Source of the DNA: Microcella sp.
Lineage (GTDB): Bacteria; Actinomycetota; Actinomycetes; Actinomycetales; Microbacteriaceae
DNA: 64,000 nt
Assembly (NCBI RefSeq): GCF_019739195.1
Contig: NZ_JAHHDS010000003.1
Coordinates: 2,046,001-2,110,000 of the forward strand
Direction of reading: 5' to 3'
Part shown: in pieces, positions 8,697 through 61,002 of the stretch
Position numbering within the stretch: position 1 is the first letter of the stretch
How the letters are laid out: every line of letters begins with the position of its first letter
Position numbers and translations under genes: made by a program
The notes under the pieces: model-generated
Told to the model about the DNA's origin: nothing
The model's input: only the letters and a program-made list of their open reading frames with translations
The model's database searches: none

Positions 8697-8721
8697 CGCT
8701 GGCGGCAGGCTGCCGCCAGCG
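8697..8721 (-). other. GC hairpin between FMN aptamer and ribD
   Basis: An 11-bp perfect stem (8697-8707 with 8711-8721) with a 3-base loop begins exactly where the aptamer P1 helix ends, overlapping it by two bases. No T-run follows in the ribD direction. It could be the expression platform, acting as a U-poor terminator, but its mode of action is not visible. Confidence 0.5.
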
Positions 8722-8848
8722 TGCTCCTCCCATCCGGACTCTCACCGTCGGTACCGGAATTCCACCGGTTCCACCGCTGCCGACTTGCGTCGACCTCGGG
8801 TCGCGGACTCTCACCGCCGGCTCGGACTTTCACCGACCCCGGAGCACG
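8720..8848 (-). promoter_or_regulatory. FMN riboswitch (RFN element)
   Basis: Read on the minus strand, the closing helix P1 is CGTGCTCC (8848-8841) with GGAGCACG (8727-8720). Between them lie the RFN hallmarks: GGTGAAAGTCC, GGCGGTGAGAGTCC, CCGGTGGAATTCCGG and GACGGTGAGAGTCCGGATGG. The aptamer senses FMN and represses the downstream ribD-ribE-ribBA-ribH operon. The aptamer ends about 65 bases before the ribD start. Confidence 0.96.
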
Positions 8849-8858
8849 TACTGCTGTC

Positions 8859-10556: not shown

Positions 10557-10632
10557 GTTCGCAACTCATGCTCAGCGGCACGATGTGACCCAGTGACCCA
10601 GCACATGGGCCCGTTCAGCCTGAGTTGCGAAC
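10557..10632. repeat. 76-bp palindromic repeat, copy 1
   Basis: Outer arms are GTTCGCAACTCATGCTCAG (10557-10575) and a right arm ending CAGCCTGAGTTGCGAAC at 10632; the left arm departs from the family consensus at two bases. Inner stem ATGTG/CACAT. It lies between glpK and the DUF559-type gene, at the left side of a unit with copy 2 on the right. The remaining bases of the 10501-10725 gap show no gene. Confidence 0.85.
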
Positions 10633-10713
10633 GGCCTCTCCGCCACAAGTCGCTGGGCAGCGCCAGTTTTCGGCAGTTCTTCGCGAGCGCGAGGTGGTCT
10701 CGGTCACAGCGGG

Positions 10714-10719
10714 CACAGT
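10714..10719 (+). promoter_or_regulatory. Possible leaderless -10 box (CACAGT)
   Basis: CACAGT keeps the conserved A and final T of a -10 box and ends exactly 6 bases before ATG 10726, with no ribosome site present. This is the spacing seen at most leaderless genes in the window. Confidence 0.42.
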
Positions 10720-10725
10720 GCGGCG

Positions 10726-11625
10726 ATGGATGCCCTCACCGTGTTTGCACGCCACTCGACACTGTGCCTGAGACGACGTGAGTTGCTCCTCGCTGGGGTC
10801 TCGCCCCGATCCATTGCGGCGGCGGTACACGCCAGAGTCATCATCCGCGCCCGCCGTGGTGTGTACTGCCCGGCGAGCGCGCCGCGACACGTTGTCCGTG
10901 CCCTTCGCGTGGGCGGTCTCGCCGCCTGCACCACGGCCGCGGAGAGTTATGGGCTGTGGGTGCCCGAGCAGCGGATCACCGAGGTCTGGCTACCGCGCCA
11001 AGCGTCTCGGCTGCGGGCACCCGATAACCGTCGTGTTCCTCTCGCTCACGCCGATCGCTCTCGGCTCCGCACGCACTGGCATCCGCTGAACGACCCTGGC
11101 GCAGCCGATTCGTGGCGGGTGGGGGCGTTCGACGCGGTCGCGCAGTGCGTGGGTTGCCTACCGCGCGATGTCGCCATCGCCGTGCTCGACAGCGCCCTGC
11201 GAACGGGAGCGATCGGAGCACACGAGCTCACCGCCCTCGAAGTGGTGGTGCCCGCACGCCGGCGGGGATGGGTGAACTTGGCCGACGGGCGGGCGGGTTC
11301 CGGCACCGAGTCGCTCGTTCGACTCGCTCTACAACACGCTGGACTACGGGTCACGCCGCAGGTGTGGATTGCTGGTGTGGGAAGAGTGGACTTGCTGGTC
11401 GGTACACGTGTCGTCGTGGAGGTCGACAGCGAGAAGTGGCACTCGACTCCCGAGCAACGAGCCGAAGACTCCCGCCGTGACCTGGAGTTGATTCGGCTCG
11501 GGTATGTGGTGGTGCGAGTGCGTTATGGCCAGGCCTTCCGGCCAGATGAGGTGGTCACCGCCGTCCTGCGTGCGGTGCGAACGAGCCGCTCGGTTACAGC
11601 GGCTCTGCGCCATCGGCGTTCATAA
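10726..11625 (+). CDS. AbiEi/DUF559-type protein with Vsr-like nuclease fold
   Basis: 299 aa. The N-terminal part (about 1-60: short helices, LLLAGVSPRSIAAAV, then RARRGVYC) looks like the winged-helix domain of AbiEi-type antitoxins. The C-terminal 100 residues resemble DUF559, a very-short-patch-repair/restriction-like fold: Glu in SGTESLVR, Asp in GRVDLLV, EVDSEKWH, and the late YVVVRVRYGQ. These fit a PD-(D/E)XK site, though activity is inference. Multi-copy proteins of this type are common in actinobacteria with no settled role. The gene is bracketed by copies 1 and 2 of the 76-bp repeat, and copy 2 supplies its last codon and TAA stop. No AbiEii toxin partner lies next to it. Confidence 0.72.
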   Translation: MDALTVFARHSTLCLRRRELLLAGVSPRSIAAAVHARVIIRARRGVYCPASAPRHVVRALRVGGLAACTTAAESYGLWVPEQRITEVWLPRQASRLRAPDNRRVPLAHADRSRLRTHWHPLNDPGAADSWRVGAFDAVAQCVGCLPRDVAIAVLDSALRTGAIGAHELTALEVVVPARRRGWVNLADGRAGSGTESLVRLALQHAGLRVTPQVWIAGVGRVDLLVGTRVVVEVDSEKWHSTPEQRAEDSRRDLELIRLGYVVVRVRYGQAFRPDEVVTAVLRAVRTSRSVTAALRHRRS

Positions 11626-11693
11626 CTCAGGCTGAGTGCTCAGTTGTGCGGGAGTACTCGCGCACATTGCCTCGCACAACCTGAATTGCGAAC
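11618..11693. repeat. 76-bp palindromic repeat, copy 2
   Basis: Left arm GTTCATAACTCAGGCTGAG (11618-11636), right arm ending CTGAATTGCGAAC at 11693; inner stem TGTGCG/CGCACA. Its left arm contains the TAA stop of the preceding gene (11623-11625). It fills almost the whole gap between two convergent genes and might therefore terminate both. Confidence 0.85.
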
Positions 11694-41003: not shown

Positions 41004-41079
41004 GTTCGTAACTCAGGCTGAGAGCGCCGATGTGCCGGGCTGTTCGCGCACAGGAGGTCGTACAGCCTGAGTTGCGAAC
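41004..41079. repeat. 76-bp palindromic repeat, copy 4
   Basis: Left arm GTTCGTAACTCAGGCTGAG (41004-41022); right arm ending CAGCCTGAGTTGCGAAC at 41079; inner stem TGTGC/GCACA. It sits between two divergent leaderless genes (maf and the methyltransferase), so here it cannot be a shared terminator. Its right arm puts a TTGCGA 15 bases before the methyltransferase -10 box. Confidence 0.86.
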
Positions 41080-58110: not shown

Positions 58111-58472
58111 CCGGCCCGTCCCAGAGCCTCTTCGCAGCCCAGACAAGCCTCGCCCAGCCCCGCGGGAGACTACCGCGTTAGGCGACGCGGCACGGCTCGA
58201 GCGCCCGCCGCGATACGAGCGAGCGAGTCGGTAGCTCGATCGGCTCCCGCGGGTCGCTACCGCTGTCAGGGGGCACCGCTCGATACCCGTCGAGGCCGTC
58301 GGGCCCCTGGCGTCTTTCGATGCGCCAGCCGTTGTTGTGCACGAGCAGGTGATGGTGTCGGCAGAGCAGTATTCCGTCAGCGACATCTGTTCGACCGCCC
58401 TCGGTCAACCACGGTTCAATGTGGTGCGCTTTGGGCTTGCCCGGGTTTGACGGACGGTTGCCGTTTGCAGCT

Positions 58473-59360
58473 TCAGTTGTAGTGAATCGGCGACTTGTAA
58501 CCAAGGCTGGAATGCAACCTGTGGTTGTTGTAGGACCAGATATAGCCGAATAGCCTCGCCCTCGCATTGGCCCGCGTAGCGGGCTGCCCGACGGGATAGA
58601 GCTCTTCGTTCTTCATTGAAGCGAACCAGGATTCCATCACGGCGTTGTCGCGTGGATCCTTTCGCTCCCCGATCGAGACTGTCATCGAGTGTTCAGCAGC
58701 GAGGTTGATCCAGTCGTGGGATGTGAACTGGTATCCGCGGTCCGAGTGGATGACGCATCCCGGCGATGGTTGGCGGATCTTGATTGCCTCTCGCAAGGCG
58801 GTCATGACCGTCCCGGGAGCCTCCTTCGAATCCGTGGCCCAAGAGATCACTTCCCGATTGAACGCATCGAGCACGACGGCGGCGTGCAGCCACCCTTCCC
58901 CGGTGCGAATCATCGTGAGGTCGGTGAACCACAACCGGTTCGCTGCTGCGGCAACGAAGTGGCGTTGCACGACGTCGATGATCTCGACCCGTCTCACCGT
59001 TGGAACAGAGCGTTTGCGGGTTCCGATGCGCCCGCGACGCGCGTGCAGGCCGTTCTCACGGAGCAATCTCGCCACCCGATGCCGGCCGATCCGCATCCCC
59101 TGCAACAGCAAAGCTTGATGCATGCGCGGAGCTCCGTAATAGGGAAAGTCGGCGTGAATCGCCTCGATCTTCTCCAGCGCGGCGGCATCCTCGAGATCAT
59201 GCCGACTCGGGCCGCGAGAGATCCAGTCGTAGTAGCCCGAACGGGAGACCCCGAGCACGCGACACAGCATCGTGACGCGTCGAGAAGGAGCTCTTGCCTT
59301 CTCCGCCGCGATCCACCGATAGATCTCTATCGGTGTCGCCTGGCGAAGAAGGCCAATGCT
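58473..59360 (-). CDS. IS3-family transposase OrfB (DDE integrase)
   Basis: 295 codons when read from the frameshift site, or 265 aa from an ATG at 59270. Contains the rve core with the DDE triad: Asp in WFTDLTMIR, Asp in VIHSDRGYQF, Glu in DNAVMESWFASMKNEEL, plus the N-terminal HTH_21 block FPYYGAPRMHQALLLQG and the GYKSPIHYN end. Expected mainly as an OrfAB fusion (83 + 295 = 378 aa) made by -1 frameshifting at GGGAAAA (59366-59360). Confidence 0.94.
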   Translation of the reverse strand, partial: SIGLLRQATPIEIYRWIAAEKARAPSRRVTMLCRVLGVSRSGYYDWISRGPSRHDLEDAAALEKIEAIHADFPYYGAPRMHQALLLQGMRIGRHRVARLLRENGLHARRGRIGTRKRSVPTVRRVEIIDVVQRHFVAAAANRLWFTDLTMIRTGEGWLHAAVVLDAFNREVISWATDSKEAPGTVMTALREAIKIRQPSPGCVIHSDRGYQFTSHDWINLAAEHSMTVSIGERKDPRDNAVMESWFASMKNEELYPVGQPATRANARARLFGYIWSYNNHRLHSSLGYKSPIHYN

Positions 59361-59608
59361 TTTCCCAGAACCTCTAACTCCTCATTGCGTTCTGCGAGCT
59401 CCCGCTCGAGCCGGGCAACTTTGGCCTTATCCGATTCCGGCGGCTCCCCGGGTGGCGGCTGCGCAGATTTCTTGTCGGCCACTCTCACCCAGTTCGAGAT
59501 GGTCGTGGCCGACAGGTCGAACTCCCTCGCGAGGTCCTTGAACGTTCGACCGCGCCGGTAGAGCTCGACGACTTGATCCTTGAACTCCTGCGAAAACTCC
59601 CGAGCCAT
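59327..59608 (-). CDS. IS3-family transposase OrfA
   Basis: 93 aa. Helix-turn-helix (REFSQEFKDQVVELYRRG, then DLSATTISNWV) followed by a leucine-zipper-like coil (KVARLERELAERNEELEVLGKAL). Near its end the sequence G-GGA-AAA fits the X-XXY-YYZ slippery rule; a -1 shift there enters OrfB directly (SIGLLRQATPIEIYRW). ATG 59608 is taken as the start; the longer frame would leave the element. Confidence 0.9.
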   Translation of the reverse strand: MAREFSQEFKDQVVELYRRGRTFKDLAREFDLSATTISNWVRVADKKSAQPPPGEPPESDKAKVARLERELAERNEELEVLGKALAFFARRHR

Positions 59609-60852
59609 GAGAACACCTTCCCGCGACCAATAGGTCGCTGTCACGATGTCCGTCAAACCCGGGCAAGCCCACTTCGCACCACGAGGGTGGCCGTTCGCAC
59701 CCCGCCCAGCGGCACCCTCCGTCGCGGACCGCGAGCGCAATGCGCTGGCGTACCGTGAACAGCCGCTGCGCGCGACCTACGTCGAGGGGCTGCCCTGTCG
59801 ACGAGATAAGTATCGGAGTCTGCGAACCCCCGCACAGCAGGCGCAGCACGGTCGGAAGGGAGACGACCTCGGTCTGCCCCTCGATCTCGCCAGCCCCGGA
59901 GCCCTCGCGCACGTCTCGAGCCGTGACGACCACTCTCACCGACGGAGCGCCGGTCGACAGCAGTTGCGACGAGTCGGCTGCTGCGCCGACCCTCAACAGA
60001 TCGAGGAACACATCAGAGGCGTACTGGTCGGGGCTGCGGTCATCAGCTCGCATGCGGTCGATGAGCGCTACGTCGTCGGGGGCCAGGAAGGTCGGCCCGC
60101 CCCTTCGGGGAGACGTCGCGCGGTCGTAGAGCTCGGTCACGATGGCCGCCGACTCGGGGTCGAGCAACCAGGTCGCCCGCGTCATGCCGTCAGCGCCACG
60201 ATGGACGCGCAACGAGCGCGCGTGGCGTCGAGCGGCTTCGCGCTCGGCGATTCCGGCGGTGTCGAGCTCGTCGCGCAACTGGCGAGCTCGGCGGTGCAGC
60301 CGGTCGACATCGAGCGTGTCGATTTCGGCGAGCAGTTGCATCACGGCGTCGTGCAAAGCCGCGGCACTCACGGTCTCGCTCACGTCACCGAGGCCACTGC
60401 GAACGGATTCGAGTGCGGCAGTTGACAGCCGACCCTGCTTGACAGGATCGATCAAGGCGCGGGCCCACACCGGAAGCGCCGGTTCGCCCGACGAGCTCGC
60501 GTCGTCGGCCGTGGTGGTGGCGAGCATCGACCCCGCACGCACCGCGATGCGGGCATCGTGTCGCGACGCCCCGGTGGTCACACGCACCAGTTCTTCGGGT
60601 GTGCGGTGCCCGCGCCGCTGAGCGAGGCCCGAGTGGGCGAGCTGCGGAGTCGAGCGCCAAGCGACCTCGCCGGCGAGCACGGCCGAGCGCGCATCCACTA
60701 GCCGGCGCACCGTCGCCGCGCGATCGAGCGCTTCGAGAAGTGCACTGTCGTCGAGAGAATGTGCGGCCTCGTCAGCACTCTCGAGCAGCGCGTGCAGCGC
60801 CGCGTCGAGTGAACCGAGGAGTGAGGAGGTCATGCATCGAGTGTCTCAAGAT

Positions 60853-60912: not shown

Positions 60913-61002
60913 TGGAGGAGTGGTTGGGGCGGGGCGGGGCGGGAGAGGTGGAGGAGTGGGTGGGGCGGGGCGGGAGAGGTGGAGGAGTGGTTGGGGCCGG
61001 GC
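60913..61002 (+). repeat. G-rich tandem repeat with G-quadruplex motif
   Basis: Two and a half copies of a unit starting TGGAGGAGTGG: 36 bases (60913-60948), 31 bases (60949-60979), then a partial copy of about 23 bases. The first is longer by one GGGGC. It includes GGGGCGGGGCGGGGCGGG (60926-60943), a four-tract quadruplex motif with one-base loops on the purE coding strand, between the broken endonuclease promoter and purE. Confidence 0.85.

Follow-up and report, generated by a model that had tools for sequence, protein, structure and literature searches.

A nuclease-fold gene between two palindromes in Microcella and the gene-specific dyad sites of its protein family

Is a small nuclease gene tied to the palindromes between which it lies and, if so, how widely within its protein family and in what way? 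The question is raised by a 64-kb stretch of DNA from Microcella sp. (hereafter the window), which contains four 76-bp palindromes, two of them around an AbiEi/DUF559-type gene (the window gene) and two solitary. Its features are as follows.

10557–10632, no strand: dyad element of 76 bp upstream of the gene; outer arms GTTCGCAACTCATGCTCAG / TTCAGCCTGAGTTGCGAAC; found at the same place in six relatives
10726–11625, + strand: gene for a 299-residue AbiEi_4 plus MTES_1575/DUF559 nuclease-fold protein (Pfam; AlphaFold2 model)
10744–10872, + strand: AbiEi_4 N-terminal domain, residues 7–49 (Pfam E 5.8e-6; Foldseek match to AbiEi 6y8q)
11311–11553, + strand: MTES_1575/DUF559 nuclease domain, residues 196–276 (Pfam; alignments; Foldseek match to I-Bth0305I 3r3p)
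11618–11693, no strand: dyad element of 76 bp downstream of the gene; its left arm lies over the last 8 bases of the gene and includes the stop codon
34310–34385, no strand: solitary 76-bp copy; the matching place in one relative (G007) also has a copy
41004–41079, no strand: solitary 76-bp copy; the matching place is occupied by a copy with a diverged right arm in G007 and by another copy in G013

The original prediction of two repeats of exactly 76 bp around the gene is confirmed by the coordinates, by Pfam and by arm-match statistics: the 19-base arm, with up to three mismatches, has eight matches in the window against 0.01 expected from 100 shuffles. The solitary copies predicted at 34.3 and 41.0 kb likewise measure 76 bp each. 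The repeat–gene–repeat unit spans 1,137 bp, and the stop codon of the gene, TAA (11623–11625), is supplied by the left arm of the downstream palindrome. The gene is intergenic and lies between two whole sites, neither in an intron nor interrupting its own target. Its neighbours are glpK (Pfam FGGY) and an ORF that we take, from a motif, to be HAD-like, and no AbiEii (DUF1814) toxin gene is adjacent to it. Searches of plasmid and phage records gave no match to the unit, and at the gathering threshold Rfam placed no RNA family at the window palindromes.

Elsewhere in the window, Rfam identified an FMN riboswitch at 8718–8850 on the minus strand (RF00050, 94.9 bits), with a ribD-like ORF behind it. 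A presumably IS3-like insertion occupies 58421–59682, where 35-bp inverted ends (91% complementary) surround a 265-residue ORF that we take to be transposase-like; it lies beside or inside a 468-residue ORF that resembles what is presumably a 13E12/DUF222 protein. At 60927–60988, a 31-bp G-rich unit is present in two tandem copies that are 97% identical.

An AbiEi-type domain joined to a nuclease fold

We know of no role for small AbiEi_4-type proteins with an MTES_1575 domain. The window protein matches the Pfam families MTES_1575 (3.2e-10), AbiEi_4 (5.8e-6) and DUF559 (3.1e-4), with a sub-threshold match to UPF0102, and its AlphaFold2 model has a mean pLDDT of 92.1. Two Foldseek matches fell below 0.001. 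The best, AbiEi (6y8q), is loose, with a TM of 0.49 over the target and an rmsd of 6.2; the other, the homing endonuclease I-Bth0305I (3r3p, catalytic domain), reaches a TM of 0.79 over the target. A profile search also retrieved 3r3p, together with 3hrl (I-Bth0305I E 2.8e-4). Five residues are invariant in two alignments of 13 and 22 sequences: E195, which lies just before the nuclease domain, D222, E232, D234 and H239. Judged from the alignments, these are likely the catalytic residues of the active site. A defence library returned AbiEi matches for all four such proteins of this genome (the window protein and its paralogues p38, p39 and p40) and weak matches to Hhe for the window protein and to a homing endonuclease for p38; NCBIfam had no match for the four, nor PHROGs for three of them.

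The protein resembles several known systems in part. Like the EDxHD homing endonuclease I-Bth0305I, which is described as forming a dimer on a target almost 60 bp long (PMC3943268), it has the catalytic fold and its conserved acidic and histidine residues; unlike it, the window gene lies between two whole sites, encodes an AbiEi-type N-terminal domain and is inherited at fixed loci. With the AbiE type IV toxin–antitoxin systems it shares the N-terminal AbiEi_4 domain, but its C-terminal half is a nuclease domain and its neighbours include no toxin. Its Pfam family is also that of the MTES_1575 Vsr-type nucleases of large defence-like proteins; the family takes its name from a very long protein that also contains HEPN, transglutaminase and wHTH domains, described in a paper whose relevant passages leave palindromes unmentioned (PMC3710099).

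Genes and palindromes pair and diverge together

In all, the 2.88-Mb genome has 12 full window-type copies of 75–76 bp, ten of them solitary, scattered over the chromosome without clustering; one further arm-like match, with three mismatches (C3:1688818), has no partner arm that we could find. The three other DUF559-type genes of the genome lie far from every one of these copies. The presence of DUF559 genes without flanking copies had been named in advance as grounds for refutation: the three paralogues do lie far from the window palindrome, yet each is bracketed by a palindrome pair of its own, with arms CTCCACAATTCAGGAG (p40), AAATCACGGA (p38) and TGTCGCATCG (p39). The candidate arrangement of one and the same palindrome beside all DUF559 genes was accordingly rejected. 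The genome contains ten copies of the p40 palindrome, five of the p38 palindrome (three of them solitary) and two of the p39 palindrome, for which an exact search of the genome revealed no solitary copy. By eye, a core resembling CGACACGCCG recurs in the interiors of several p40-type copies (C3:246–378 kb); it may represent a third block for recognition.

Is such bracketing general in the protein family? For each gene we asked whether the same 14-mer arm recurs as a palindrome on both its upstream and its downstream side. The 93 distinct genes comprised 76 of 78 genus matches and 17 of 24 loci of a named set; left out were a gene with a short flank (1), the second half of a split gene (1) and duplicate genus loci (7). 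With thresholds set after the score distributions had been seen, 63 of 93 genes scored at least 33 under a restricted geometry (equal spacing, set positions). The corresponding counts were 10 among 500 non-cognate flank pairs and 2 among 186 other genes; one of these two is an ORF that runs antisense to a tested gene, and the other lies next to a different tested gene. An unrestricted score of at least 36 was reached by 61 of 93 genes, against 10 of 400 non-cognate pairs and 10 of 168 other genes. By either criterion 74 of 93 genes pass (63/76 of the genus, 11/17 of the named set and 31/42 protein clusters), compared with 16/500 and 9/186 controls; all nine passing other-gene controls come from loci fetched for the nuclease gene, and elsewhere the count is 0/83. 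In 53 of 93 cases, with 1.1 expected, a gene's own downstream flank strictly beats every non-cognate flank. Nineteen genes fail both criteria, among them two with equal spacing and weaker arms (L158, L160) and three short fragments (L107, L138, L154).

In the paired arrangement, one palindrome lies about 145–260 bp upstream of the start codon and the other near the stop codon, and the arms are mostly the gene's own. The predicted link between DUF559 genes and palindromes thus stands in that 74 of 93 genes are bracketed, and falls in that no one palindrome serves them all; that DUF559-type nucleases depend on the palindrome is supported only indirectly. In a phylum-wide sample of 30 loci, 13 besides that of the window have a recognisable gene, of which three score 35–36 with equal spacing and one 32, in a sample without a control of its own. 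An MTES_1575 match is present in 54 of 119 sampled phylum genomes, over the family cut-off in 29, and some of these matches lie in long proteins of another build.

The window palindrome itself has a narrow range. Searched for as had been proposed, it has the 12 full copies in the genome itself; in a family-wide sample of 398 genomes it was found in three, each belonging to the window's genus. Within the genus it is present in 10 of 26 genomes. Seven of these have both a window-type gene and sites, and three have sites only, namely four copies in G023 (99% complete) and one each in G016 and G017, where the best gene matches are just 44–46% identical. Six genus genomes other than that of the window carry a gene 71–85% identical to the window gene and bracketed by two copies of the palindrome, at a distance of 1063 bp from start to start (1061 in the window). 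In all six, glpK lies on one side and the same gene, which we take to be HAD-like, on the other, followed by what is presumably trpS in the five with a long enough fetched stretch. At the glpK locus of G009 and G002, the genes are 54% and 59% identical and the palindromes have diverged. In G009 (L094), the palindrome upstream of the homologue is tandemly duplicated together with its surroundings.

Vertical inheritance of loci, with clustering and phasing in one family of sites

Among gene pairs that are at least 60% identical, a flank is in common in 155 of 157. The gene loci are vertically inherited and, within a subfamily, the units keep to their loci. Solitary sites are mostly old as well: for nine of the ten solitary window-type copies, another species has a copy at the matching place (matched by coordinates, and by alignment for the copies in the window), in a comparison that cannot count absences because the loci of other species were fetched for holding copies. 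Given that most solitary sites are at places common to another species, dispersal would be slow. The search for empty sites in relatives that the original prediction had suggested was productive, in that one copy in G014 has no counterpart where G000 and G007 align with it, one clear lineage-specific gain, and a nearby copy common to G000 and G007 is absent in G014. The gained copy came with extra flanking sequence and, at this one site, without target duplication relative to G000 and G007. Ten of 32 solitary copies fall within mechanically called ORFs, calls that are too unreliable for use as gene context.

The p40-type palindromes are more widespread: of the 26 genomes of the genus, 24 contain them. 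Pattern matches number 0–19 per genome, and a reversed control pattern gave none. Of the 19 genomes that are at least 90% complete, 17 have p40-type sites together with the gene, and both are missing from two (G019, G020); three genomes that are 71–75% complete (G014, G015, G021) have sites and no detected gene. In nine genomes whose copies were placed, 57 of 63 solitary p40-type copies are no more than 75 kb from the gene, against an expectation of 5.7%; copies that share a site across genomes are not independent. At one orthologous p40-type site, G000, G007 and G008 carry one arm variant and G001–G004 another, as at their genes; the arms of G004 fit its own set just partly. A location of the p40 cluster at the origin was considered and rejected, the start of the G007 contig being unlike an origin and the p40-type gene of G009 lying 1.1 Mb from gyrB. 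In the latter genome the gene (C1:1115148) and gyrB (5–7 kb, L265) are on a 2.59-Mb contig, which puts the gene roughly opposite the likely origin.

The spacing of the arms is restricted in both types of site. All window-type copies are 75–76 bp long despite a much wider permitted gap, and the 83 p40-type copies in nine genomes have lengths solely of 82–83, 93–95, 104–106 and 115–116 bp under a search that permitted about 64–124; these classes are 11 bp apart, with a best period of 11.1 bp. Among 11 orthologous pairs, in which one own site appears four times, the arms match at 361 of 374 positions, compared with 274 of 461 for the interiors, the former figure being inflated because the copies were found through their arms; for the one copy found by synteny instead, the values are 29/34 and 25/42. 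Across 42 window-type copies, 38 mirrored positions showed almost no covariation beyond column composition, with the exception of two positions (z 2.8 and 2.2) and a deficit at one (z −3.5). As the interiors drift with almost no covariation, which speaks indirectly against selection on pairing, the element looks like a double-stranded site with two arms rather than a hairpin, which had been proposed as the recognised form and which also fits poorly with spacing in 11-bp steps. Because the arms keep a fixed or helically phased spacing, the protein most likely binds both together.

What the nuclease may do at its sites

We propose, with a probability of roughly 0.55, that gene and palindromes form one cognate system across the protein family, a functional analogue of REPIN–RAYT whose enzyme is homing-endonuclease-like. 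The protein, in which an EDxHD/Vsr-like nuclease is joined to an AbiEi-type DNA-binding domain, would have as its partner a two-arm dyad with subfamily-specific arms, both of which it would most likely hold at once. Binding at the two sites that bracket the nuclease's own gene would probably also set its expression. We infer that the nuclease binds and cleaves dyad sites, disperses them and homogenises them: cuts or nicks at a site, followed by repair, would keep the set alike and occasionally seed new sites, preferentially near the gene in at least one family. Low copy numbers, old positions and sites without a detected gene argue against dispersal.

The predicted REP/RAYT-like layout with an enzyme other than a Y1 transposase was borne out by the bracketing pair, the solitary copies and the Pfam and fold matches to AbiEi and I-Bth0305I. 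RAYT genes are described as flanked by two cognate palindromes with which they co-evolve, with solitary copies elsewhere and, in a few genomes, REPs that accumulate around the gene over no more than 200 kb (PMC2817692). The system described here shares the cognate pair, the co-evolution of gene and palindrome, the solitary copies and, for the p40 type, accumulation near the gene. Because its enzyme is of a different class, an AbiEi_4 plus EDxHD/Vsr-like nuclease without the tyrosine (Y1/HUH) transposase, it is not a RAYT. It also differs in number: we find from 2 to about 19 copies, whereas REPs usually exceed 100 per genome, which is not a strict criterion, as a table in the RAYT paper has low counts too (PMC2817692). 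REPINs are described as inverted doublets separated by a spacer (PMC3116915), a form that the two-arm sites share. The sites differ from REPs in bearing almost no sign of hairpin selection and, in one family, in arms spaced in 11-bp steps.

The strongest competing explanation, which we regard as possible and yet clearly less probable than a cognate system of nuclease and target, is that the palindromes are operators or architectural sites only. The protein would be an AbiEi-like autoregulator, the bracketing sites may loop the gene, the solitary sites would be selected binding sites, and the nuclease would target something else, such as invading DNA. In keeping with this, AbiEi antitoxins are described as autoregulating by binding inverted repeats in their own promoter (PMC7319586). 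Solitary sites kept at matching places between species, the 11-bp steps and arms that differ in step between groups of genomes all suit an operator. The invariance of the likely active-site residues speaks against sites that serve regulation only. Operators do not usually lie at a stop codon, and the members of a regulon would not be expected to cluster around one gene; both features fit this explanation poorly.

It is improbable that the elements act as hairpins in single-stranded DNA or RNA (a REP-type substrate, a terminator or an RNA stabiliser), with the gene link a positional by-product. The outer arms can pair, the layout is REP-like and two of the 38 mirrored positions pair slightly above the mixing prediction; against this, the other positions have no excess and one a deficit, Rfam has no match at the palindromes, the spacing falls into phased classes and the arms are gene-specific. 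Least credible of all is an ordinary mobile element (a composite transposon or MITE family) with palindromic ends by chance and the nuclease as passenger: a gene between two repeats, solitary copies and one lineage-specific gain would suit it, but gene pairs share their flanks, the unit has no room for another gene, the one empty site has no target duplication, the nuclease is constant where the palindrome varies, and the family-wide bracket test makes it unlikely. The short, gene-less, dispersed dyads do recall MITEs, from which they differ in that every set belongs with a nuclease gene.

A limited literature search, which lacked most subscription journals and all bioRxiv preprints, found no description of a link between DUF559 genes and palindromes. 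MTES_1575-domain proteins are common in Actinobacteria, and the family-wide partner site gives most of the small AbiEi_4-type nucleases a predicted target that is directly testable. Taken further, the cognate-system reading leads to a broader one, for and against which we see the balance as about even: that Actinobacteria harbour a widespread, vertically inherited class of homing-endonuclease-like enzymes, each maintaining and slowly spreading, around its gene, a set of helically phased double-stranded dyads of its own, and that this is a REPIN–RAYT-like lifestyle of independent origin. If the nucleases do cut their sites, small palindromes would have a second, independent means of being maintained and propagated in bacterial genomes, and the family would supply nucleases whose target sites are long and readable.
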